A stretch of 21,829 bases of DNA, taken from a virus. A program made the translations under genes and the position numbers. The DNA lies in the IMG/VR virus record IMGVR_UViG_3300032516_000995, positions 1 through 21,829 of that record. One strand, 5' to 3'. This document shows, piece by piece, positions 10,876-21,829 of this stretch (position 1 is its first letter; every line of letters starts with the position of its first letter). The notes beneath the pieces are model-generated. The model was given only the letters and a program-made list of their open reading frames with translations. It did not search any database and had not been told where the DNA came from.

Positions 10876-12480
10876 ATGGGACTTCGGATAACTCCAACAG
10901 TTCTAGTTCTCGATGTCCCCGAGATCGATGATGGGCTGAGAGAACTCCTGAAGGAGACCCTCGGTGGGAAGGAACTCGACTCTTGTCGATGGTCTTTCCC
11001 AAGATATAGATGCTACGCGTTCTCAATTTTGAGGGCACTCCCTGGAGTTACCCCTACCCCTGAGGTAGATCTGTTCCTTCATGGGAATCCTCTAGATCTC
11101 GAACCAGCTGACCCGCCTCGGTCGTTAGAGATTCATCGATCGTATAGCAAGATGTACCCGTATCAACAGAGGGCCTCTTGGGCACTGATGACTCGTCCCA
11201 AGGGTCTGCTCCTGTCGTTATCTCCAGGGCTAGGGAAGTCACTCGTATCTATCGTGGCTGCCGAAGCTCTCTCGTATAAGAATGTACTGATCGTAGCCCC
11301 TCTGACTCTCTTGAGAACGTGGGAGTCGGAGATCGTCAAATGGGGTGGGTATCTGAGAGAGATTACATCGATCAAAAGAGGGTCCGCAAGGCCCGAGACT
11401 GGAGGGGTAACACTCACTAACTACGATACAGTCTCTCGCCATTCTGGACTTTACTCGAAGCATAAGTGGGATCTCGTAATCCTCGACGAATCGATTCTCG
11501 TGAAGACGAGAGACTCGAAAAGAGTAAAAGAGTTGTCAAAGGTCACACGGGTCGCTAAGAAAGTCTGGTGTCTCTCGGGATCACCAATCTCACGTCATGC
11601 CGACGATCTCTGGAGCCAGTTCCATCTGATCGACCCTCAAGGATTCAAGTCCTACTGGAGGTTTGCAGAACAATATTGTGTAATTGAAGAGTCTATCTGG
11701 GGGAAGATTGTTCGAGGGACTAAGTCTGATATCGATCTTCGAATAGAGTTTTCGGATATCATGCTTGTAGTTCATCAAGACGAAGTGCTAAACCTCCCCC
11801 TCGAGAAGATCGAAGTAATCGACCTCGATTTGAGACCTGATCAATCTCAGGCTTATGATACTCTCTTAGAGGAATTCTACATAATGCTCGAAGGGGGTAC
11901 AGAGCTCTCTGTTAGCTCGAAGATGGCTCAACTTACATTCCTTCAGGAGATAGCTTCTGATCTTGTCAATGTAGATCGTCAAATCGTAAGCTCGTCGAAG
12001 ACAGATACGATTCTAGAACTTCTCGACACAGGATACTTCGAACTTCCTACGATCATCTGGACACATTGGCGTCAGGGAGCTCAATGTCTATACGAAGAAC
12101 TCGAATCACGCAACTACGTCTGTAGATACGTCAATGGGGATACATCTGAGGAGGACCGAGCAACAATTCTCGAAGCCTACAAGTCGGGAGATATACCGAT
12201 CCTCATTCTCTCGATGGGAGTAGGGAAGTTTGGTCTGACTCTAACGAATACTCGAACGATGATCTACAAAGATCGAACATTCGATATGGATGCATATGTC
12301 CAGAGTTTTGCACGTGTTCGTCGGATCGGACTTGACCACGAACCAACAGTGATAATTCTCAGATGTCCTGGGACTACTGATGATCTGATCGAAGAGAATT
12401 TGATCGGAAAGTCTAAGTCTCTTGCACAAGTTACAAATGCTGAGCTTCTCAGCATTCTCAAATCTTTACGAGGAGGTTAG
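10876..12480 (+). CDS. SNF2-type superfamily 2 helicase/ATPase, 534 aa
   Basis: ATG 10876 begins shortly after the previous stop; the RBS is poor and a GTG at 10810 is a possible earlier start. Helicase motifs are clear: YPYQQRASWAL (Q-like region), Walker A SPGLGKS (116-122), motif II DES (204-206), motif III LSGSPIS, motif V MGVGKFGLTLTN and motif VI QSFARVRRIG (from 476) with arginine fingers. This order and length match phage SNF2-like DEXX-box ATPases. It probably translocates on double-stranded DNA or remodels protein-DNA complexes during replication or recombination. The AGGAGG in its last codons is the RBS of the resolvase gene. Confidence 0.88.
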   Translation: MGLRITPTVLVLDVPEIDDGLRELLKETLGGKELDSCRWSFPRYRCYAFSILRALPGVTPTPEVDLFLHGNPLDLEPADPPRSLEIHRSYSKMYPYQQRASWALMTRPKGLLLSLSPGLGKSLVSIVAAEALSYKNVLIVAPLTLLRTWESEIVKWGGYLREITSIKRGSARPETGGVTLTNYDTVSRHSGLYSKHKWDLVILDESILVKTRDSKRVKELSKVTRVAKKVWCLSGSPISRHADDLWSQFHLIDPQGFKSYWRFAEQYCVIEESIWGKIVRGTKSDIDLRIEFSDIMLVVHQDEVLNLPLEKIEVIDLDLRPDQSQAYDTLLEEFYIMLEGGTELSVSSKMAQLTFLQEIASDLVNVDRQIVSSSKTDTILELLDTGYFELPTIIWTHWRQGAQCLYEELESRNYVCRYVNGDTSEEDRATILEAYKSGDIPILILSMGVGKFGLTLTNTRTMIYKDRTFDMDAYVQSFARVRRIGLDHEPTVIILRCPGTTDDLIEENLIGKSKSLAQVTNAELLSILKSLRGG

Positions 12481-12481
12481 A

Positions 12482-12922
12482 TTGTTTCCGAATGCTCCAC
12501 CGATTCTCTCCCTCGATCCAGGTCTTACAACAGGGTATGCTCTGGTTACAGCCGAGGGACTTCTCTCACAATCCGGGAATATTGGGATCGAAGATCTGAA
12601 AGATTCTTCAATTCTAGAATCGATCAAGAAGATCCCGGGACTCTCGATCGTGATCGAAGAAGTACCGATCTATGGGAACTCTAAGTTGGGTCGACAGCTT
12701 CAACAAGTAAATGCAACTCTCAGGGAAATGTTCCCTGAAGCAGTAAAGCTTCCACCCTCAGCCTGGAAGACGATCCCAAGTATCTCTAACTTCCCTGTCC
12801 CGAGTGAATGGGACGGGAAGAAACTCACCCAGCATCAAAAGGACTCCTATCGAATGGGAATGTTCTTCATCATCTTCAGGAAAGGAGTCCTCAGTGTCCT
12901 TCGAGAACCCCAAGCCTCTTAG
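12482..12922 (+). CDS. RuvC-like Holliday junction resolvase, 146 aa
   Basis: The start is TTG 12482: AGGAGG (12471-12476) lies exactly 5 bases before it, and no ATG fits. The RNase H-like fold is shown by LSLDPGLTTGYALV (Asp12), IVIEEVPIYG (Glu59/60) and HQKDSYRMGMF (His118, Asp121), the acidic residues expected to hold two metal ions. Length is near that of RuvC (about 170) or phage resolvases. It would cut branched DNA before packaging. The nuclease gene downstream starts inside it (29-base overlap). Confidence 0.82.
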   Translation: MFPNAPPILSLDPGLTTGYALVTAEGLLSQSGNIGIEDLKDSSILESIKKIPGLSIVIEEVPIYGNSKLGRQLQQVNATLREMFPEAVKLPPSAWKTIPSISNFPVPSEWDGKKLTQHQKDSYRMGMFFIIFRKGVLSVLREPQAS

Positions 12923-13928
12923 GATCTCAGTATCAGATCTGACGTACTTCTCGGACTGTCGACGTCAGTGGTATTGGAATCGAACGTACTCATCAAAGAG
13001 ACCAGATCCTCGGTTCTGGCTCGGGACCATAACACATTCGGGGCTTGAAGGGTACTTCAAGAACAATCGGGATATGTCCCACGGGATGGACTATTTCGAG
13101 ACCCAAGTCCAGAAGAGTATCCGAGATATCCGTGAGGAGTTCTCCCCAATCTGGTCGTCGATTGTACCCGAATTCGATACTCTCTACGTGACTGCCGCGG
13201 GGATGCTTCAGAACTATAGCATTATGGATCACGAAGATCCTTTCCAAGGGGAGATCTACTTCGTCGAGAAATATGCACGAATTCCTCTACCAGGATTAGT
13301 TGGGAACCAGAGTCAGACGATCGAGATCTCAGGTCGAATGGATCTCGTACTGAAGCATAAGAAGGAACTCCATCTCGTCGACCATAAGACCTCAGCATCT
13401 CTATTCTCTCCAAATGGTCTCGAAGTCGACGAACAGATGACGGCTTACTCGTGGATGCTCTGGAAACTGGAGAACCAGATTCCCGAGATGGTCACCTATG
13501 ATGTTCTGATCAAGTCACTTCCAGAAGAACCTCGAGTTCTGAAGGAAAAGGGAAGTCCTCTATCTCTCGATAAGGGACAACCTACAGTCTACAGCCTATA
13601 CCTTGGCGCACTTCAAGACCGAGGATGGGAGAAGGAGGAACGATACGCACCAATGTTGAATTACTTGAAGGCAGCTGGATGGTCGAAGTATTTCCAGAGA
13701 CTTTCCTCGACCCGAAATCAACATGAGCTCGAATCTTTTGAGGATCGTGCTCGTGCTAAGGCCTTGGATATTCTTCGGATTCTCGACAATCCCGAAACCT
13801 TCGCCTACCCCAGCCCATCGACCTATCGATGTGGAGGGTGCCCCTTCCTGATGGTCTGCAAATCGAAAGACGACGGCGGGGACTTCCAGTACATGCTCGA
13901 CTCGAGTTTCAAGAAAGGATCATGGTAA
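12894..13928 (+). CDS. Cas4/RecB-like PD-(D/E)XK nuclease with Fe-S site, 344 aa
   Basis: The start is GTG 12894, with AAAGGAG (12881-12887) six bases upstream. LRISVSDLTYFSDCRRQWYW is the typical N-terminal helix with Cys22. Catalytic residues follow as SGRMDLV (Asp150), LVDHKT (Asp163, Lys165) and QMTAY (Gln181, Tyr185). Cys313, Cys316 and Cys322 (CGGCPFLMVC) complete a four-cysteine iron-sulfur site like that of Cas4 and AddB. It is probably an exonuclease acting with the Sak4-like ATPase and SSB in phage recombination. There is no CRISPR array here, so a CRISPR role is unlikely. Confidence 0.88.
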   Translation: MSFENPKPLRISVSDLTYFSDCRRQWYWNRTYSSKRPDPRFWLGTITHSGLEGYFKNNRDMSHGMDYFETQVQKSIRDIREEFSPIWSSIVPEFDTLYVTAAGMLQNYSIMDHEDPFQGEIYFVEKYARIPLPGLVGNQSQTIEISGRMDLVLKHKKELHLVDHKTSASLFSPNGLEVDEQMTAYSWMLWKLENQIPEMVTYDVLIKSLPEEPRVLKEKGSPLSLDKGQPTVYSLYLGALQDRGWEKEERYAPMLNYLKAAGWSKYFQRLSSTRNQHELESFEDRARAKALDILRILDNPETFAYPSPSTYRCGGCPFLMVCKSKDDGGDFQYMLDSSFKKGSW

Positions 13929-14689
13929 TGCGGATCATTCAGCCAGAGACAAACCGCAAAGCAAAAGTAATGATATACGGCCCCACAGGGGGTGGGAAGA
14001 CCACTCTTCTGGGAACAGCCAATGACGACGTTCGTACGTACCCGATGCTGTTTCTGTCGTACGAAGGAGGGACATCCTCTCTCGTAGGTCGTCAGATCGA
14101 TATCGTAGAGATTCGAACCTGGAAAGACTTCGACGAGGCCTACGATCTCTTGAAGTCTGATTCGGCAGAGAATATCTATCAATCGGTTGGAGTTGATTCT
14201 GTCTCGGAGACCCACGTTTGGGCTCTCCTGACGATCCTCGAAGCAGCTACAGAGTCCCGAAGGCGAGCTCTCCCAGACCTCCTTGAACAAGGGGATTATG
14301 GAATTGCTTTGACACAGATGAGGAAACTCCTTCGGAAATTTCGGGACCTGCCGATCCACGTCTTCGTGACTGCTCTCGATCGTGTTGACTCCGATCCCCG
14401 AGAAGGTCAAGTGAAGAAGCCGGCGTTGACTGGCGCACTTGCCGATGAGGCACCAGGGATCTTCGAGGCAGTCAACTATCTATCGACAACTGTCGACGAA
14501 GCGAACGAAGTTCGGAGAGTCCTCCTGATGCAGAACTACCCGAAGTTCAAAGTGAAGACTCGTCTTCCAATTGGTGTGACGATCCCGAACGAAATGTGGG
14601 ATCCTACTGTTACCGCTCTCTTGGATCTTCTTCAGATCGAGTATCCTGAAGAAGTTCAAGGGAAGACTCAAGACAAAGGAGCTGAATAA
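13928..14689 (+). CDS. Sak4-like RecA-family ATPase, 253 aa
   Basis: I choose ATG 13928 because AAAGGA (13914-13919) gives an 8-base spacing; ATG 13922 is only 2 bases away. It shares one base with the upstream stop (TAATG). The Walker A motif GPTGGGKTT is at 18-26 and a Walker B-like VGVDS ends at about residue 91. Overall length and pattern match the phage AAA / Sak4 single-strand annealing proteins. It should load on ssDNA together with the SSB encoded just downstream (again TAATG). Confidence 0.82.
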   Translation: MRIIQPETNRKAKVMIYGPTGGGKTTLLGTANDDVRTYPMLFLSYEGGTSSLVGRQIDIVEIRTWKDFDEAYDLLKSDSAENIYQSVGVDSVSETHVWALLTILEAATESRRRALPDLLEQGDYGIALTQMRKLLRKFRDLPIHVFVTALDRVDSDPREGQVKKPALTGALADEAPGIFEAVNYLSTTVDEANEVRRVLLMQNYPKFKVKTRLPIGVTIPNEMWDPTVTALLDLLQIEYPEEVQGKTQDKGAE

Positions 14690-15225
14690 TGCCGACGTTA
14701 GATCTCGATTTTTCGAGCGTTCAAGACTACGATGTCCTCGACTCGGGCGAATACCCAGTTGTGGTCAAGAAAGTAGTCCTTCGGGACTCTAAGAGCCAGC
14801 CTGGCGAGAAGTACCTGAATTGGGACCTTGAGATTACCGACGGAGATGCCGAGGGTCGTCATCTGTTCTTTATGACGAGCCTGAAGGCTAACGCACTCTG
14901 GCGTCTCAAGGCGGTCTTCGAGAACCTGGGGATCTTCCAGGAGCATATGGCTCTCGAGGTTGATGAAGAGACCGGTGAAATCTATGGTCCTGAATTGTCC
15001 GGGCTGGTTGGTCTGGCGAGTGTCTCTCAAGAAGTCTACGAGAAGAAGCTCCAGAACAAGGTCGACGATCTTCTCCCCCTCGGTGAAGAGATCGAGACTC
15101 CTCCTCCTCCTCCTGCACCAAAAGCCCCTCCCTCGGTTGTTCGGTCAGGCACTCCTGCTACTCCCCCGAAGCCTCCCACACGCCCTGCTACTCCTGGGAC
15201 GGCACGGAAGCTGAACGTTCAGTAG
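14689..15225 (+). CDS. DUF669-like ssDNA-binding protein, 178 aa
   Basis: ATG 14689 shares its A with the upstream TAA. Residues 1-110 have the pattern of phage DUF669 / OB-fold proteins: LDSGEYPVVVKKVVLRDSK, GEKYLNWDLEITDGDAEG, HLFFMTSLKANALWRLKAVFENLG. The C-terminus (from about 138) is a Pro/Ala/Thr-rich low-complexity tail with a CCT triplet run, rather than an acidic tip. It likely coats ssDNA and partners the Sak4-like ATPase, as in other phages where the two are adjacent. Confidence 0.8.
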   Translation: MPTLDLDFSSVQDYDVLDSGEYPVVVKKVVLRDSKSQPGEKYLNWDLEITDGDAEGRHLFFMTSLKANALWRLKAVFENLGIFQEHMALEVDEETGEIYGPELSGLVGLASVSQEVYEKKLQNKVDDLLPLGEEIETPPPPPAPKAPPSVVRSGTPATPPKPPTRPATPGTARKLNVQ

Positions 15226-15240
15226 TCTGACCTGGGTGCT

Positions 15241-15385
15241 CCTCGACTAATCTAACCATCGGCTTCGAGGCGAAATGAACCGACACCCTTCTTGAGGTAT
15301 CGTGATGTCGAGGTCTCACAAACCTCACCAAAGGTCGCAGTCGACCCTTCCAAAACTGCTAGTCGCAGACCCTACAAAACAAGGA
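15241..15385 (+). promoter_or_regulatory. structured, repetitive leader before the transporter gene
   Basis: This gene-free stretch (15226-15390) holds hairpins CCTCGA/TCGAGG (15241-15270) and GAGGT/ACCTC (15310-15326). It also holds an imperfect repeat: TCGCAG then ACCCT, C and AAAAC at about 15335-15357, again at 15363-15380. The RBS AAGGA (15381-15385) follows directly. Placement before a preQ-type transporter hints at ligand-controlled regulation, but it does not match the preQ1-I consensus I know. Confidence 0.35.
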
Positions 15386-15390
15386 CTGAA

Positions 15391-16056
15391 ATGAAACGTG
15401 ATAGTACAATCCTGCCCCTGCTGACTGTTCTCTATGCAGTGGCACTCGTCGTCTCGAATATCGTAGCTGGGAAGCTCTGGGATCCCCAGATCGGTTTGAT
15501 CTTTACTGCAGGTGAACTTCTCTTCCCCCTGGTATATATTATCGGAGATGTAGTTCCCGAAGTATATGGGTTGAAGGTTGCACGAAAGATCATCTGGATA
15601 GGGTTTCTCTCGAACCTCTTCGCTGTAGGGTATTTCTTCATTGCACTTGCTCTCCCGTACCCTCCCTTCTGGCAGAATCAGGAAGCCTTCCAGATAGTTC
15701 TGGGATTTACCCCTCGCCTTCTTCTCGCCTCCTTCGTTGCTTATCTCGCCGGTTCCAATGTAAATGCCTGGGTCCTTGTGATCATCAAGAAGAAGACTGG
15801 GCCTAAACTCCTCTGGGTTCGAACTATCACAAGTACCATCTTCGGGGAGGGTGTTGACTCTATCCTCTTCACAACGATCGCCTTCTGGGGAGTTGTTCCG
15901 ACTGACGTCCTGTACGTCATGATTGGATCTCAATGGGCATTCAAGACCCTGTACGAGATCCTAGTTACCCCATTCACATACCTGGCGGTCAACTACGTGA
16001 AGAAAGTCGAGGGGATCGACCAATACGCAAAACTAGCAGAAGGTGCTAATGAGTAA
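15391..16056 (+). CDS. yhhQ: queuosine precursor transporter, YhhQ/COG1738 family, 221 aa
   Basis: I start at ATG 15391, with AAGGA five bases upstream; this gives 221 aa, the length I recall for E. coli YhhQ. About six hydrophobic segments are visible. Family signatures include GELLFPLVYIIGDVVPEVYG near the N-terminus, WVRTITSTIFGEGVDSILF in the middle and LVTPFTYLAVNYVKK at the end. The family imports preQ0/preQ1 across the inner membrane. It overlaps queC by 8 bases, so it belongs to the modified-base operon and probably feeds it with salvaged precursor. Confidence 0.85.
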   Translation: MKRDSTILPLLTVLYAVALVVSNIVAGKLWDPQIGLIFTAGELLFPLVYIIGDVVPEVYGLKVARKIIWIGFLSNLFAVGYFFIALALPYPPFWQNQEAFQIVLGFTPRLLLASFVAYLAGSNVNAWVLVIIKKKTGPKLLWVRTITSTIFGEGVDSILFTTIAFWGVVPTDVLYVMIGSQWAFKTLYEILVTPFTYLAVNYVKKVEGIDQYAKLAEGANE

Positions 16057-16753
16057 AATAGTCGTTCTTCACTCAGGAGGTCTAGATTCGTCTACACTCC
16101 TGGGAACATTTCTTCAGACCACTCCCCCTTCGGAGATCTTGACGCTGTCGATCTTATACGGTCAGAAACATGATCGTGAAGTCTATGCTGCCGAGAGAAT
16201 TTCGGAGTTCTATCATGTGGAGCATGAAGTTTTTCGTATCCCCTCTCCAGTCTTTCAAGTTCGATCCGAGGAAGGTACTCCTTCGTCTTTGACAGACGAC
16301 GCAGAGATGCCTCATCAAACCTACGACGAACTCTCGACTTCTGTAGGGGTCTCTCCAACCTATGTTCCTTTTCGAAATGGTAACCTAATTTCGATTGCAA
16401 CTTCGATCTGTCTGGCGTATGGTGGAGGGATCGTAGCCACAGGTGTTCATGCGGAAGATTCCCGAAATTGGGCCTACCCTGACTGTACCCCTGAGTTTAT
16501 CGGGGGTATGCAGAATGCGATCTACGTAGGGACTTATCACAGAGTCCGACTCGTCGCTCCCTTCCAGTACATGATGAAATCGGATATCGTCCGATTGGGA
16601 CTTATCCTCAAGGTTCCATACGAGAAGACTTGGTCATGCTACGAAGGGGGTGATTCTCCCTGTGGAGAATGCCCTACGTGCATCGAACGACTGGAAGCTT
16701 TTAGAGTAAATGGGGCCACAGACCCCGTATCATATCGGAGGACCAATGTCTGA
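16049..16753 (+). CDS. queC: 7-cyano-7-deazaguanine (preQ0) synthase QueC, 234 aa
   Basis: I start at ATG 16049 with AGAAGG five bases upstream. The PP-loop ATP-binding motif HSGGLDSS is at 8-15. VPFRNGNLISIA and YPDCTPEFIGGMQ are QueC family blocks. The zinc site is complete: C197, C205, C208, C211 (C-x7-C-x2-C-x2-C). The enzyme turns 7-carboxy-7-deazaguanine plus ammonia and ATP into preQ0. No glutamine-amidotransferase fusion is present. Length matches free-standing QueC (about 230). It overlaps the genes on both sides by 8 bases. Confidence 0.93.
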   Translation: MSKIVVLHSGGLDSSTLLGTFLQTTPPSEILTLSILYGQKHDREVYAAERISEFYHVEHEVFRIPSPVFQVRSEEGTPSSLTDDAEMPHQTYDELSTSVGVSPTYVPFRNGNLISIATSICLAYGGGIVATGVHAEDSRNWAYPDCTPEFIGGMQNAIYVGTYHRVRLVAPFQYMMKSDIVRLGLILKVPYEKTWSCYEGGDSPCGECPTCIERLEAFRVNGATDPVSYRRTNV

Positions 16754-17147
16754 TAATTCATATGGTTTGACGATCCTAGGTTCGAAGACCCTCGAGCCTA
16801 GAGATCAAGTCGAGTGCTTCCCGAACGATCATTTTCTCCCGTATCAGATCTCACTGACTTCGAACGAGTTTACATGCAAGTGCCCTGTTACGGGACAGCC
16901 CGATTTTGCTTCGATCGGCATCGAATATTTTCCCAATAAGTCTGTTGTCGAGTCGAAGTCTCTGAAGCTGTTCTTGTGGTCCTATCGGGATGTTGGGATA
17001 TTCCACGAGAATGTTGTCAATCAGATCGCTGATATTCTCTACGATCAGATCGAGCCTCACTGGATTCGAGTTATAGGAGTATTCAACCCTCGAGGAGGGA
17101 TTGGAATCACCGTAACTGCCGAAAGAGGCGAGATCCCAGTCAACTAG
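16746..17147 (+). CDS. queF: NADPH-dependent preQ0 reductase QueF (type I), 133 aa
   Basis: ATG 16746 overlaps the queC stop by 8 bases, with GGAGG upstream. FTCKCPVTGQPDF carries the catalytic Cys46 and Asp53. ESKSLKLFLW (69-78) is the QueF NADPH-binding signature, and FHE (86-88) the substrate-binding His/Glu. WIRVIGVFNPRGGI also matches. QueF reduces the nitrile of preQ0 to the aminomethyl of preQ1. The intact NADPH motif argues against the archaeal QueF-like amidinotransferases, which lack it. Length is close to unimodular YkvM-type QueF (about 165), with a shorter C-terminus. Confidence 0.92.
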   Translation: MSDNSYGLTILGSKTLEPRDQVECFPNDHFLPYQISLTSNEFTCKCPVTGQPDFASIGIEYFPNKSVVESKSLKLFLWSYRDVGIFHENVVNQIADILYDQIEPHWIRVIGVFNPRGGIGITVTAERGEIPVN

Positions 17148-17153
17148 GCAAAT

Positions 17154-17211
17154 TCCCAGGGGTTCCAATAGTGGGGCCCCTGGGACAAATCCAGAGAGAA
17201 GCCGTCTCTCT
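17154..17211 (+). terminator. two hairpins in the queF downstream gap
   Basis: TCCCAGGGG (17154-17162) pairs with CCCCTGGGA (17177-17185), and AGAGAGA (17193-17199) with TCTCTCT (17205-17211). Only TTTT occurs, 9 bases after the second stem. Partial termination or RNA processing between queF and the YkgJ-like genes is possible. Confidence 0.4.
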
Positions 17212-17222
17212 AGGGAGGTTTT

Positions 17223-17285
17223 ATGCAAGTTTTCAGGATAAACCGAGAGAATCAGGAGGATCCCTATGGGTGTGCGTCTACCTGA
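17223..17285 (+). CDS. possible 20-aa leader peptide
   Basis: ATG 17223 follows GGGAGG (17213-17218) by 4 bases, and the frame (MQVFRINRENQEDPYGCAST) ends with TGA at 17283-17285, inside the start of the next gene in another frame. It contains that gene's RBS. It could be a leader peptide coupling translation to the YkgJ-like gene, or simply chance. Only the RBS and position support it. Confidence 0.3.
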   Translation: MQVFRINRENQEDPYGCAST

Positions 17286-17982
17286 TTCCGTCGAGAAGAT
17301 CTGCAAGCAACTCGGGGCTGTAGCACAGAGTCCCTTTACTGCATACAATACATCGTACCCTGCTCCTCTTGAGGTCGTACTCTCGAGGGCATTCTTCCGG
17401 AAGTATTCGTGCTACCCAATGTGTGGTGGGTGTTGTCTAAACTTCAGCCTCGATTGGACACCTGCAGAATACCCAACTCTAGAAGAGAAGTACCCCGAAG
17501 TAGCCAATCGTTGCAAACCCCGATCTATCTGGGTCAATGGGAAGGAAGTGATAGTCTTCACGATTGACCAAGGCAAGGGCCTAGAACTCTTCGGGAAAAA
17601 TTGGTGTTCTTATCTCGAGATGACAAATCAAACTTGTAACATTCACGAATGGAATCCCTTCTCGTGCCAGGTTGAATTGATCAAATTCAGAACGATCTGG
17701 CGGGAAGGGGTACCTCGAGGGTATCTCCTGAAGGGGCCGTTTGGTCGTGGATGGGAGATGAGCCGAGCATCAGATGGGCAGAGAGGTGTCATCTGCGATT
17801 TCGAACAAGAATTCTCTCCAAGACAATTCGAGGAGAACGATCTCCCAGTCCTGAAGAGAGCACTCCATTGGGCAAATCATCTAGGGATCGAGACTCATCT
17901 TCCTAGGATCCTTGATTGGGTCCTGAAGCAAGTCGAAGATCGAACTTTTCAGGAACTCCGAATTGAGAGGAAATATGGTTGA
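17266..17982 (+). CDS. YkgJ-like cysteine-rich metal/Fe-S protein, first paralogue, 238 aa
   Basis: AGGAGG seven bases upstream supports ATG 17266. The cysteine pattern is C49-x3-C53-x2-C56-C57, then C114-x9-C124-x9-C134, plus C177. This is the signature of the YkgJ / zinc- or iron-chelating family (PF03692), including the 'C-x-I-x(n)-P-x-x-C' block as CNIHEWNPFSC. Eight conserved cysteines could bind two metal sites or Fe-S clusters. Family function is unknown. It lies between queF and the dpdA-like gene and has a same-length paralogue directly downstream (8-base overlap), suggesting both act in modified-base synthesis or tailoring. Confidence 0.8.
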   Translation: MGVRLPDSVEKICKQLGAVAQSPFTAYNTSYPAPLEVVLSRAFFRKYSCYPMCGGCCLNFSLDWTPAEYPTLEEKYPEVANRCKPRSIWVNGKEVIVFTIDQGKGLELFGKNWCSYLEMTNQTCNIHEWNPFSCQVELIKFRTIWREGVPRGYLLKGPFGRGWEMSRASDGQRGVICDFEQEFSPRQFEENDLPVLKRALHWANHLGIETHLPRILDWVLKQVEDRTFQELRIERKYG

Positions 17983-18691
17983 GCCAATCCAGAATTTGAC
18001 GGCGTATCGAACCCTGGAACGTCTAGCACGTCTCTCATGGAACTCTACGTACATTGGAGATAAGGTATACGAGCCTCAGAGTATCGTTCGTCTCTCTCCA
18101 ACAATCCTTCGAAAATTTGTCTGTACCGAGGGATGTGTATCTTGCTGTCTTCAGGGACCTCTTACGCTTGATTTCATCCCTGAAGAACGGGCCTGGCATT
18201 TACTCCCCCTGAGGTATCGAATTCACTTCGAGTCCCGTGTACTCCTAGTGAATGGGAGGGCTCGTCAATTCTTCTCGTATATGAAACCGAAGGGACATTG
18301 CCCCCTAATGTCCGAGGTTCGTAATGGCTCTCAAGGATGTTCTGTCTGGCCTATGAACCCAATCGAATGTGCAGCCTCGGCAAGGATCACAATTCAGTCG
18401 GGAGGGCTCGAAGGAGGAGTCAGAGTTCAGAAGAGACTCTTCGGGAGGGCATGGAGATACAATCCCCCTGTTCAATGCGAGTACCCTCCAATCGAGAATC
18501 TCCAAGATCTTGCTGAGGAGCTCGACAAAGATATTGCTGTCTTCCATCGATATCTCGATTGGGGGCAATACTTCGGAATTCACGATACTGCGATCCCTTG
18601 GATCATCGATCAACTCGAATATGCGAAAGTCTTTGGAGAATTTCGCGATACAACACAGTTTCCGAAAGGGATACTTCCCAATGCATGCTAG
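17975..18691 (+). CDS. YkgJ-like cysteine-rich metal/Fe-S protein, second paralogue, 238 aa
   Basis: ATG 17975 has GAGAGG just upstream and overlaps the first paralogue by 8 bases. The same pattern recurs: C50-x3-C54-x2-C57-C58, C109-x12-C122-x9-C132 and C168. Shared landmarks with its neighbour include a VNG turn, CSVWPMNPIEC against CNIHEWNPFSC, LFGRAWRY against PFGRGWEM, and a C-terminal helix pair around LDWGQYFGI / LHWANHLGI. Sequence is otherwise strongly diverged, so the pair may form a heterodimer or do successive steps. The dpdA-like gene starts within its last codons. Confidence 0.8.
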   Translation: MVEPIQNLTAYRTLERLARLSWNSTYIGDKVYEPQSIVRLSPTILRKFVCTEGCVSCCLQGPLTLDFIPEERAWHLLPLRYRIHFESRVLLVNGRARQFFSYMKPKGHCPLMSEVRNGSQGCSVWPMNPIECAASARITIQSGGLEGGVRVQKRLFGRAWRYNPPVQCEYPPIENLQDLAEELDKDIAVFHRYLDWGQYFGIHDTAIPWIIDQLEYAKVFGEFRDTTQFPKGILPNAC

Positions 18692-19493
18692 CGTCATTCC
18701 ACCTATTGCACATCTCGAAGAGTTTTGTAAGGGCCGTCCTTTCCATCTGGTTCTTGCACACCTCCTTGGGAACCCCGACTACTTCAAGTTCTGGGCAAGT
18801 GAATCGTCTCGATCCTATGTCATGCTCGATAACTCGGCACATGAGTTTCAAGAGGGACAAGCTACTCTGAAGTTGCTTGAGAATGCCTTCAACCTAGGTG
18901 CTTCCGAGGTCGTCCTTCCCGATAAGCTCTTTGACTCCGAAGCAACTATCGACAATACTGTCTCAGCTATCGAGTCAATCTCGACTCTCGAGTTCTTGAG
19001 GGAGTCAATCCCATTCCCTCGATTCGCAATGGTCCCCCAAGGCCTCTCGATCCCTGATTTGAGGGACTGTGCACTGGGAATGGGAGATGCCTATCTTCGA
19101 GGGCAAGACAAGTTCCCCAAAAAGTTCGGTCAGCCGACTGTAGGGGTCTCGAAGGACTACGAGAGATTTCCTGGGGGATTGATCGAGACCCTCGAGAAAG
19201 TTATTTTTCCGATGCAGGATCGTCTGAAGGCTGAGGTTCATCTATTTGGCTGGGGTCGTAATCTCTGGGCCTACCGGGATATCGTTCGACAGTACGGCCC
19301 CCGAATTCGATCGATTGACTCTGCAAAGCCTTTTGTCTATGGAGCCGAGGGAATCTTGATCAGGATGGATGAACCTGCTCCCAAGTATCCTCGACGTCGT
19401 TCCGATTATTTCGAGATGGGACTGGAACCTCTTCAGTTGGCTATCTCGCAAATGAATGTCAACGTCTTCGACGATATGGTACGAGGTGTCTAA
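18681..19493 (+). CDS. dpdA: DpdA-like DNA guanine transglycosylase (TGT superfamily), 270 aa
   Basis: ATG 18681 overlaps the upstream stop by 11 bases; the RBS is weak (AAAGGG, 10 bases away). The sequence resembles phage TGT-superfamily proteins: YVMLDNSAHEFQEG (Asp50), ASEVVLPDKLFDS, FPRFAMVPQGLS, VHLFGWGRN and RIRSIDSAKPFVYG (Asp213), with the two Asp positions expected for base exchange. DpdA enzymes swap guanine in DNA for a 7-deazaguanine. At 270 aa it is short beside tRNA TGT (about 370). The queC-queF-transporter context strongly favours DpdA over a tRNA enzyme; the subfamily is undecided. Confidence 0.8.
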   Translation: MHASVIPPIAHLEEFCKGRPFHLVLAHLLGNPDYFKFWASESSRSYVMLDNSAHEFQEGQATLKLLENAFNLGASEVVLPDKLFDSEATIDNTVSAIESISTLEFLRESIPFPRFAMVPQGLSIPDLRDCALGMGDAYLRGQDKFPKKFGQPTVGVSKDYERFPGGLIETLEKVIFPMQDRLKAEVHLFGWGRNLWAYRDIVRQYGPRIRSIDSAKPFVYGAEGILIRMDEPAPKYPRRRSDYFEMGLEPLQLAISQMNVNVFDDMVRGV

Positions 19494-21829
19494 ATGATTG
19501 TTGATTACCCAGGGTGTGAAAAATGTCCACTGAAGGACTGCCCACCTGTTCGAGGCAAAGGCCCAGCAGGTGGGATAATGGTTCTGGGAGAAGCCCCTGG
19601 TGCAACTGAAGTACAGAGAAAAGAACCTTTTGTAGGTCAGTCTGGTCAGCTTCTTCGTTCGACTCTGAAAGCCGCAGGGGTAGATCCCTCGTCGGTCTAT
19701 TACACGAATTCGTGCCTCTGCCGGCCCCCTCAGAACAAAACACCATCGACAACTGCCGTGAAGTGTTGTTCCCAAAGGCTTCGAGACGAGATTCTCGGAG
19801 TCGACCCTCAGAAGATCCTCTGTGTAGGTGGGACAGGTCTCTCGGCCCTTCGAGGAGAACCTACCCCAATTACGAAGTGGCGAGGGATCGGAATCATGAC
19901 TCCCTCCGAAAAACCAATCTACGTAATCTCGACGTACCATCCTGCAGCTGTTCTTAGGACCACTGATCTATTTCGGGACTTCGCAAAAGATATCGTGAAA
20001 CTTGTCTCTAACGAGACCCCTCTACCTCAACCCAGTCTAACTACGATCGTCCCTACGACCCCCGAAGAAGCAATTGAATATCTAAGGGAACTCCGAGAAG
20101 CTTCGATTCTATCAACTGACCTCGAGACCACAGGGTTCTCACCCCTCAAGGATACAATTGAGTCATTTGGCTTTGGGGCTTGGTCGGGAGAGACCTCTGG
20201 AGTCTCAGTCATCATCCCATACGAGGTCGGGTGTCAACCATCTGTTCGAGAAGAGATGAGAGATCTGATCTCAACCTTCGAGGGACCTCTCGTCTTTCAC
20301 AACCTGAAGTTCGATCTTCAGTTCTATCAGATCTTCTTCGGGACGGATGTTCGACCTCAGTCTCCTCGAGATACGATGTTGATGCAATATGCTGTTGACG
20401 AAAGAGGGTCCGGGGGAGATACATCGGGTGGATCGTCTGGGAACTCCCGAGGGTATCGAGTTCATGGTTTGAAGGACCAAGCTCGAATCAGATACGATGT
20501 TCCCGATTATCATTTCGACTTCAAGGAGTTCTACTCCAAACCTCGAGAGGAGAGAAACTATCAACTACTGTACGAATACCAAGGGATCGATTGTTTTATC
20601 ACTCTAAGGCTCTATAGGGATCTCTGTAATGATATCGAAGAGGAGTCACCTGCACTTTGGGAACTCCTCGACGAGATTCTAATCCCAGGGGCTCTAGCCT
20701 TCACAGAAATTGAACTCGGGGGAGTGCCAGTCGATCTTCCGTACTTCCGAGCTCTCGAGATAGAGATGACTCTTCAGATCGACGATCTCCGAAGAAAATT
20801 GGTCGAGAGTGCGAAATCTTTAGAGCTTCCCGAAGATCTGAACTTTGGTTCTCCTACCCAGGCACTGAAGTGGGTAAAGGCACTCGGGTTCAAGGTTGAG
20901 TCAACCGAGAAGGAAGAGCTCCAATTTGCGATTCAGAGGCAAGGGAAGGTCCCCCAGGATCGAGTAGATCTTCTGAAGGACTTTCTTCTATATCGACAAC
21001 TCGACCGAACAAAAGGGACCTATGTTACAGGTCTCCTCGAGAGAGTCGATGTCGACGAATGTATTCGACCTGACTTTCTTCTTCATGGGGCAGATACTGG
21101 ACGTCTCGCTTGTAGGGATCCCAATCTTCAGAACATCCCTATCTTGATGGGTCCAAAGATCCGAAATGGGTATATCGCTCCCGAAGGATATACTCTACTC
21201 GAAGCCGACGGGAGTCAGCTCGAACTTCGTGTTGTCTGTTGGTATAGTCAAGACGAAGTAATGATGGCAGCCTATCAGAATAACGAGGATCTCCACAAAC
21301 TTGTTGCGAGTAAGATGTTCAAAGTTCCCATCTCCCAAGTTACCAAGCTCGAAAGGTACATGGCGAAGTACGTAGACTTCGGGATTATCTACGGCCGAGG
21401 TGCGTATAGTCTCGCCAATGGGTGGGAAATGGAATATATCGTACAGCAGGGAGGAAAAGCTTGGACCGTCAAAGAAGCTGAGTACTTCTTGAGAGAATTC
21501 TTAGACTCGTTCCCAGGATTGAAAGCCTGGATCGAGACTCAACATCGACTAGTTAGAGCACGGAAATTCGTAGAGACTCCTACAGGCAGACGTCGACGCT
21601 TCCCTCTCATGATGGAAGAGAACGTCTACTCTGTCGAACGTCAAGCTGTGAATACTCCCGTCCAGTCGCTGGCCTCCGATCTAGTTCTTACTGCGTTGAT
21701 TCGACTTCATCGGATCTTCAAAGACAAATACCCTACGACTGACCCTTGGAGACCTGCAGTCCGAATTCTATTTACAGTTCATGACTCGATTATGTTCCTA
21801 GTTCGAGACGACCTTCTTGACGAAGTTCG
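19494..21829 (+). CDS. polA: uracil-DNA glycosylase / 3'-5' exonuclease / DNA polymerase A fusion (3' end beyond window)
   Basis: ATG 19494 follows the dpdA stop directly; 778 residues are visible. Residues 1-170 are a family 4 type uracil-DNA glycosylase: GEAPGATEVQ (32-41), PFVGQSG, CRPPQNKTP, YHPAA, with C8, C11, C76 and C91/C92 placed like the 4Fe-4S ligands. Then a proofreading exonuclease: DLETTGF (Asp209, Glu211), HNLKFD (Asp274), YQGID (Tyr362, Asp366). Then family A polymerase: motif A DGSQLELR (Asp572), motif B R621, K625, F629, Y633, motif C VHDS (Asp764, Ser765 where Glu is usual). UDG-Pol fusions are known in phages such as SPO1. Confidence 0.9.
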   Translation, partial: MIVDYPGCEKCPLKDCPPVRGKGPAGGIMVLGEAPGATEVQRKEPFVGQSGQLLRSTLKAAGVDPSSVYYTNSCLCRPPQNKTPSTTAVKCCSQRLRDEILGVDPQKILCVGGTGLSALRGEPTPITKWRGIGIMTPSEKPIYVISTYHPAAVLRTTDLFRDFAKDIVKLVSNETPLPQPSLTTIVPTTPEEAIEYLRELREASILSTDLETTGFSPLKDTIESFGFGAWSGETSGVSVIIPYEVGCQPSVREEMRDLISTFEGPLVFHNLKFDLQFYQIFFGTDVRPQSPRDTMLMQYAVDERGSGGDTSGGSSGNSRGYRVHGLKDQARIRYDVPDYHFDFKEFYSKPREERNYQLLYEYQGIDCFITLRLYRDLCNDIEEESPALWELLDEILIPGALAFTEIELGGVPVDLPYFRALEIEMTLQIDDLRRKLVESAKSLELPEDLNFGSPTQALKWVKALGFKVESTEKEELQFAIQRQGKVPQDRVDLLKDFLLYRQLDRTKGTYVTGLLERVDVDECIRPDFLLHGADTGRLACRDPNLQNIPILMGPKIRNGYIAPEGYTLLEADGSQLELRVVCWYSQDEVMMAAYQNNEDLHKLVASKMFKVPISQVTKLERYMAKYVDFGIIYGRGAYSLANGWEMEYIVQQGGKAWTVKEAEYFLREFLDSFPGLKAWIETQHRLVRARKFVETPTGRRRRFPLMMEENVYSVERQAVNTPVQSLASDLVLTALIRLHRIFKDKYPTTDPWRPAVRILFTVHDSIMFLVRDDLLDEV

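Follow-up and report, generated by a model that had tools for sequence, protein, structure and literature searches.

Gene run and supply of the base

The DNA analysed here, referred to as the window, is the whole of the IMG/VR virus record IMGVR_UViG_3300032516_000995 (21,829 bases). Positions 15391-19493 carry six intact genes, all on the + strand, which encode a queuosine-precursor transporter, QueC, QueF, two CxxCxxCC (YkgJ-like) proteins, here called M1 and M2, and a small DpdA-like protein with the predicted fold of the tRNA-guanine transglycosylases (TGTs). Together, this gene run very probably serves to mark the phage DNA with a 7-deazaguanine derived from preQ1. A sequence-only reading had placed genes of these six types at these positions, and all six were recovered there, four by family scores, M2 by BLASTP and the DpdA-like protein by its fold. 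Since the polymerase gene that follows the run continues past the window end, the record represents a genome fragment.

The same reading had described one coupled run. This is borne out at most joins, with overlaps of 8 bp between the transporter and QueC genes, the QueC and QueF genes and the M1 and M2 genes, and of 11 bp between the M2 and DpdA genes, but a gap of 118 bp, which would be strongly structured if it is transcribed, separates QueF from M1.

The transporter (15391-16056, +) matches Vut_1 (PF02592) with E 1e-50 and TIGR00697 with 127.9 bits, above the curated cut-off of 50.95. By these family scores the protein belongs to the QPTR/YhhQ family, its cargo here being predicted. QPTR of E. 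coli has been reported to transport preQ0 and preQ1 (PMC11130926), and YhhQ homologues in some phages are already on record (PMC6884629). Vut_1 transporters were matched in 16 phage records, none of which is among the 27 phage records carrying a CxxCxxCC gene, and the transporter lies near TGT genes in Streptococcus phage MS1 and Fusobacterium phage phiFN37. QueC (16049-16753, +), the 7-cyano-7-deazaguanine (preQ0) synthase, matches PF06508 with E 3e-50 and passes TIGR00364 marginally (150.7 against a cut-off of 150.3); it contains SGGLDS, an SGGxDS P-loop, and the zinc cysteines CGECPTC. QueF (16746-17147, +), a preQ1 synthase of the short type, reaches 139 bits against the curated cut-off of 86.9 with TIGR03139, 'preQ(1) synthase'. 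Its motif CPVTGQPD supplies a Cys and an Asp, and the motif ESKSLKLF, which we take to relate to NADPH, is also present. A catalytic-type Cys and Asp are common to QueF and QueF-L (PMC5485725), and the reductase and the archaeosine-type QueF-like protein are reported not to be told apart by sequence alone (PMC6884629). The protein is 48% identical, over 86% of its length as query, to QueF of phage Dp-1, whose DNA is reported to contain dPreQ1 (PMC6884629).

From these families we infer that transport and preQ1 synthesis are the functions of the first three genes: the transporter would bring preQ0- or preQ1-type bases into the cell, QueC would make preQ0 from host 7-carboxy-7-deazaguanine, and QueF would reduce preQ0 to preQ1. 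Genes for FolE, QueD (PTPS) and the radical-SAM enzyme QueE gave no match within the 21.8-kb window fragment, so that QueC must draw its substrate from the host or from a genome region outside this fragment. The transporter-QueC-QueF set suggests, for a phage, a dependence on outside or host precursors.

As a gene order in general the layout is not new, contrary to what had been supposed, since the order transporter-QueC-QueF was found in 7 of 80 bacterial loci, with titles naming Bacteroidota, Bacteroidetes, Sunxiuqinia or Bacteroides. A capture of the three genes from Bacteroidota may be considered, since the gene order is shared, but in a comparison of 18 loci the sequences did not set the Bacteroidota apart. 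QueC was nearest to that of another phage contig, IMGVR_UViG_3300032516_001061 (L012 below; 48%), the transporter to those of Clostridiales and Magasanikbacteria, and QueF had its highest scores, by a narrow margin, with loci of Bacteroidota. An apparent phage carrier of the three genes, MT836020.1 (L139), was rejected because it looks like bacterial DNA. This record, labelled 'Bacteriophage sp.' in GenBank, encodes MurB, CorA, DnaX and methionine synthase, as a bacterial chromosome would.

The gap between QueF and M1 (17148-17265, +) holds a 14-pair hairpin, formed by an inverted repeat at 17154-17185 directly after QueF, and a 7-pair hairpin. Its computed RNA fold of -47.6 kcal/mol compares with -34.2 (standard deviation 3.5) for shuffles, none of 200 being as low (z -3.8), and is owed chiefly to the 14-pair hairpin. 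Since no T run follows this hairpin, a simple intrinsic terminator is unlikely. Rfam gave no match in the gap. A preQ1 riboswitch was found neither at the gathering score across the window nor as a plausible weaker match at 15000-17400 (two chance-level matches), and riboswitch control of the cassette was therefore rejected. Promoter-like and terminator-like sites at 13500-20000 were not enriched (4 against 4.8 in shuffles and 6 against 6.0, respectively), and repeats at 15000-19600 stayed at chance level with the sole exception of the inverted repeat at 17154-17185.

A DpdA-like protein with a predicted TGT fold

The last gene of the run (18681-19493, +) encodes a protein without a Pfam or NCBIfam match, which is recognized only by an unnamed PHROG (PHROG 20335) at E 1e-4. 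Its AlphaFold model has a predicted local distance difference test score (pLDDT) of 95.2 and a predicted template modelling score (pTM) of 0.91. In Foldseek, the seven best chains are all TGTs (best E 2.7e-7), and in VIA-align the top match is a preQ1-bound TGT with Z 17.1 and a root-mean-square deviation of 3.3 over 233 residues, all 50 rows shown being TGTs. The model thus lies inside the TGT fold, in agreement with the earlier assignment.

Conserved residues were compared in 57 aligned proteins of the DpdA family, comprising the window protein and 56 others under 90% identity, drawn from 67 relatives that passed score and length. D50, N51, S52, E55, D81, H187, G190 and D213, which include candidates for the active site, are invariant (57/57), and Q120 is kept in 56. 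Judged only by their order, D50, D81, Q120 and D213 may correspond to D102, D156, Q203 and D280 of TGT.

The best match in phage records is a hypothetical protein of phage Youna2 (24% identity), through which relatives in Bacillus and Brevundimonas phages and in Flavobacterium phage immuto were reached, that of immuto being annotated as DpdA. In viral contigs, no relatives were reached with patterns built from the single DpdA-like, M1 or Youna2 protein, but the pattern from an alignment (A3) did reach them. The resulting motif scan of IMG/VR matched at least 599 stretches, at least 291 of which encode relatives, and the best 80 were kept. With local hidden Markov models, 75 of these 80 showed one or more of QueC, QueD, QueE, FolE and QueF within the stretch that was fetched (QueD in 63, QueC in 53, QueE in 52, FolE in 45 and QueF in 5). 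The window protein may belong to the 'DpdA3' subfamily, which Cui et al. 2023 reportedly describe. A formyltransferase-like gene stands close after DpdA in immuto (L008, 5894-6421) and in the IMG/VR relative L051 (755-1336), where QueF is present as well. A preQ1 formyltransferase, DpdN, has reportedly been described.

Several observations count against the TGT assignment. A HisA barrel follows close behind the TGTs in Foldseek (rank 8, E 2e-4), and VIA-align gives a Z of at least 8 for 931 of the 999 preselected chains. Profile matches in the PDB at E of 10 or below number three, all weak, namely 7ui4, a DNA-guanine transglycosylase (0.085), an unrelated heme-binding protein (0.11) and 1iq8, an archaeosine TGT (0.73). 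The assignment draws on a predicted fold, and sequence kinship is weak.

In a rival reading, the TGT-fold enzyme would act on RNA, and the cassette would serve host or phage tRNA by placing preQ1 there and aiding translation in infection. The fold is that of the tRNA-guanine transglycosylases, the transporter, QueC and QueF co-occur on bacterial chromosomes, and a tRNA role has been proposed for phages that have pathway genes but lack DpdA (PMC6884629). However, the best PDB profile match, although weak, is the DNA-guanine transglycosylase, the relative in immuto carries the annotation DpdA, and the DpdA gene directly precedes a polymerase gene in the window and in 14 of the 80 relatives, three of which (L074, L078 and L080) share one context. 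We therefore consider a tRNA role very improbable. A predicted TGT-fold enzyme that, judging from its family, probably inserts a deazaguanine into DNA agrees better with these observations. It would replace DNA guanines by the deazaguanine base, and might do so shortly after replication; this timing is a conjecture from the junction of the DpdA gene with the polymerase gene, which starts at the base immediately after it (19494).

The CxxCxxCC proteins M1 and M2

M1 (17266-17982, +) matches PF03692 with 25.4 bits, 2.4 above the cut-off of 23. M2 (17975-18691, +) has no Pfam match and was recognized as a strongly diverged tandem paralogue of M1 by BLASTP (one pairwise comparison, with 27% identity and E 1e-10); in tblastn it also matches the CxxCxxCC protein of Pseudanabaena phage Pan1 (E 2e-7). 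Matches of the tblastn type to M1 were obtained in 27 of 50,697 phage records (18 from Vibrio phages, 7 from Cellulophaga phages, Pan1 and Mycobacterium phage Knocker). Searched with the family profile, the window yields two CxxCxxCC copies and 11 other records yield a single copy each; the tandem pair is an unusual feature of the window. The apparent tandem genes of L138 are overlapping pieces in two frames and were counted as a single gene that is broken. Among the literature matches listed, none describes a tandem arrangement of CxxCxxCC genes in a phage, but their coverage is too limited to settle the point.

Residue counts for this family refer to the 32 rows of alignment A7, kept from 37 matches. 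The cysteine motif reads CX3CX2CC. M1 retains all eight cysteines of the other relatives, whereas M2 has seven in register, the eighth probably being displaced to C109 after a 3-residue insertion, as we read the alignment. Of the family-invariant non-cysteine residues, M1 retains Q104, H125 and E135 and lacks Y16, D102, G120 and L193. M2 has lost D102, Q104 and E135 (32/32 in the other relatives), H125 (31/32) and the DGxRG motif. In the tree, M2 joins the L012 protein, to which it is 39% identical, in a clade with support 100/99 and branch length 4.1, away from M1 and the 36 remaining proteins; long branches meet at this clade, as the tree program warned. In Foldseek the M2 model matched nothing at E 0.001 or below, and its best VIA Z was 3.8, which does not imply a novel fold. 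A PDB match of the family profile to BurB (E 0.0096) was set aside because the aligned part, profile positions 116-175, leaves out the N-terminal motif.

The neighbourhoods of such genes were followed in 36 IMG/VR loci from a profile scan (38 were listed, and L102 and L012, which lie on the same contig, were both left out). Vibrio phage VH7D enters twice, once under its phage name and once as IMG/VR locus L136, and a weak opposite-strand DpdA-type match at L117 was omitted from the counts. The fetched stretches contain QueF in 28 of the 36, a same-strand DpdA-type gene in 24 and both in 22, and in 16 FolE is no more than 300 bp away from the CxxCxxCC gene. In whole records, 30 of the 36 IMG/VR carriers have a QueF above the cut-off, and QueF is present in 7 of 7 others, window included. 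The six IMG/VR carriers without it are records of 4-18 kb, one of which (16 kb) has a diverged QueF. The CxxCxxCC gene of VH7D has no further cassette gene, by annotation or by match, within a distance of 6 kb, and QueF lies elsewhere in the record.

preQ1 bears an aminomethyl group. DpdM is reportedly a preQ1 methylase of unusual fold (Cui et al. 2023), with which the lack of a clear solved relative for the M2 model would agree, and the CxxCxxCC protein is here presumed to be DpdM. M1 is here named DpdM-like and M2 DpdM-related. A comparison is offered by FliB, a methylase of lysine amino groups that depends on S-adenosylmethionine (SAM) and for which a [4Fe-4S] cluster is essential; its motif CX4CX3CC has been likened to PF03692 by its authors (PMC8598068). 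The likeness lies in features of FliB, namely the PF03692-like cysteine motif, the [4Fe-4S] cluster and amino-group methylation with SAM. FliB differs in its protein substrate and in the spacing of its motif (CX4CX3CC against CX3CX2CC), and the likening is by motif description alone. By this comparison, the presence of the CxxCxxCC proteins suggests that the base is a methylated derivative and not plain dPreQ1.

Plain dPreQ1 would be expected if the CxxCxxCC proteins were not methylases but metal or iron-sulfur helpers that donate electrons or metal to QueF, DpdA or replication. This would suit the Pfam description of PF03692, which is only that of a putative zinc- or iron-chelating domain, and the lack of several family residues in M2. 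QueF and DpdA also suffice for dPreQ1 in Vibrio phage 6E351A, for which a modification of 15% of dG by a 295-Da base, consistent with plain dPreQ1, is reported (PMC12028318). However, the record of phage 6E35.1a (MW824377), taken to be 6E351A, has QueF and gave no CxxCxxCC match by tblastn, which argues that a helper is not needed. In addition, the methylation of amino groups by FliB (PMC8598068) speaks for a methylase, and the presence of QueF in most CxxCxxCC carriers fits a step after preQ1. Helper proteins and plain dPreQ1 are thus unlikely.

The account that we favour, and consider probable, is that the run puts a preQ1-derived base into the phage DNA and that M1 methylates it. The second half is the weaker inference, made by analogy: M1, a putative iron-sulfur type methylase (DpdM-like), would methylate the aminomethyl group, and the methylated preQ1 in DNA would be resistant to restriction. 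The sequence-only reading had the phage place preQ1, or a derivative, in its own DNA. The DpdA-type TGT-fold enzyme within a preQ1 cassette probably upholds a preQ1-derived base, while plain dPreQ1 gives way to a methylated derivative.

Some evidence weighs against this account as a whole. At a distance of up to 300 bp from the CxxCxxCC gene, QueF is present in 22 of the 36 loci but a DpdA-type gene in only 5. M1 itself departs from the family at positions invariant in 32 of 32 others (Y16 to Q, D102 to I, G120 to Q and L193 to A), and its reading as DpdM draws on the reported nature of DpdM, on FliB and on neighbourhood. Phage 6E35.1a is one phage, judged by tblastn. The transporter and QueC would be partly redundant, and the QueC substrate must be supplied by the host or from elsewhere. 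The genes and the fold come from computation, and the chemistry, base exchange and protection included, is read from the families.

For M2, the most likely role would be on the same base, by adding a second methyl or by serving M1 as an altered partner. That M2 is a second methylase is a conjecture to which we give a rather low probability. Somewhat less likely still is the fuller version, in which M2 acts after M1 to give an unreported 7-deazaguanine, such as a dimethylaminomethyl form or another group based on methyl-preQ1; the transporter-QueC-QueF set would here support salvage without FolE, QueD and QueE. M2 may also be inactive, having lost more family residues than M1. If it were a decayed or structural duplicate, only M1 would matter, and the product would be methyl-preQ1, which has reportedly been described. 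The losses at D102, Q104, E135, H125 and the DGxRG motif favour this possibility, to which we give a similarly small weight. Against decay, the frame of M2 is intact and overlaps both neighbours, seven cysteines remain in register, and its counterpart in L012 is the only CxxCxxCC gene found there, which argues for a maintained function. Phages evade restriction by modified guanines, and each new enzyme may bring a new base with it. M1 and its remote paralogue, with cysteines kept and other conserved residues lost, form a natural pair for asking which residues meet the substrate and whether there is a second product, and the second paralogue is the part worth an experiment.

Surroundings of the run and comparison with known systems

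The gene at 19494-21829 (+), cut by the window end, encodes a uracil-DNA-glycosylase-like (UDG-like) domain (PF03167) fused to a family A DNA polymerase (PF00476). It is a neighbour within the same run and itself no modification enzyme. The same fusion occurs in L012 (8794-11259), and the polymerase genes of L013 and L014 open with a similar stretch, judged by eye. Upstream of the cassette lie a Sak4-like (AAA_24) gene and a DUF669 gene. Farther away, Rfam reports a tRNA at 2903-2972 (+, 48.1 bits, gathering 29), where ARAGORN makes no call. Its anticodon arm is irregular, and the palindromic ACUGUCUAGACAGU may put CUA in the anticodon in a reading by eye. Under table 11, TAG is the stop of QueF, M2 and other window genes.

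A megablast search of 12000-21829 against phage records gave no match. At the level of gene content, CxxCxxCC genes neighbour both QueF and a gene of DpdA type in Cellulophaga, Pseudanabaena and Mycobacterium phages. In Cellulophaga phi38:2 / phiSM (KC821629, L002), QueF, CxxCxxCC and a DpdA-like TGT adjoin, with CxxCxxCC between QueF and TGT and QueC close by. Unlike the window, phi38:2 has its own FolE, QueD and QueE, one CxxCxxCC gene and no Vut_1 transporter, and its TGT belongs to PHROG 887 instead of PHROG 20335. Pan1 (L003) and Knocker (L004) each have QueC, QueF, CxxCxxCC and TGT in one run; CxxCxxCC stands between QueF and TGT in Pan1, with a small open reading frame after QueF, and follows QueF and TGT in Knocker. 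Both differ from the window by FolE and QueD inside the run, a single CxxCxxCC gene, the lack of Vut_1 and a TGT of PHROG 887. For Pan1 and related phages, a published account interprets the queuosine genes as serving DNA modification (PMC11806900).

The same small DpdA family occurs near preQ0 genes in Weizmannia phage Youna2, Bacillus phages BSP7 and BSTP5, Brevundimonas phage StAshley and Flavobacterium phage immuto. DpdA directly precedes the polymerase gene in the first four, whereas six genes lie between in immuto. Their stretches gave no CxxCxxCC or transporter match, and immuto has QueF and the formyltransferase-like gene.

L012 resembles the window in carrying AAA_24 (Sak4-type), DUF669, QueF, transporter, QueC, M2-type, DpdA (44% identical) and UDG/polymerase genes on one strand. 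No PTPS or radical-SAM match was found there, and its sub-cut-off FolE match was rejected because it overlaps the L012 QueF; neither fragment shows FolE, QueD or QueE over the cut-off. L012 differs in having only the M2-type CxxCxxCC gene, QueF before the transporter, and two HNH genes and an exonuclease-like gene inserted. A short open reading frame of L012 (2155-2490), between an HNH gene and the transporter, looks by eye like a second, diverged QueF and has no Pfam match. A Vut_1 transporter is present in none of the 36 IMG/VR CxxCxxCC records and in 2 of 15 others, namely the window and L012. A transporter beside CxxCxxCC genes is thus unusual and, among the records examined, otherwise seen only in L012.

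The layout had been put forward as previously unseen. This holds for the tandem CxxCxxCC pair and the transporter beside it, but not for QueF, CxxCxxCC and TGT genes together, which occur in the named phages and in the 22 IMG/VR loci counted above. The window therefore represents a known kind of phage DNA modification cluster, set apart by the missing FolE, QueD and QueE, the hairpin between QueF and M1, the transporter beside the CxxCxxCC genes and the tandem pair itself.

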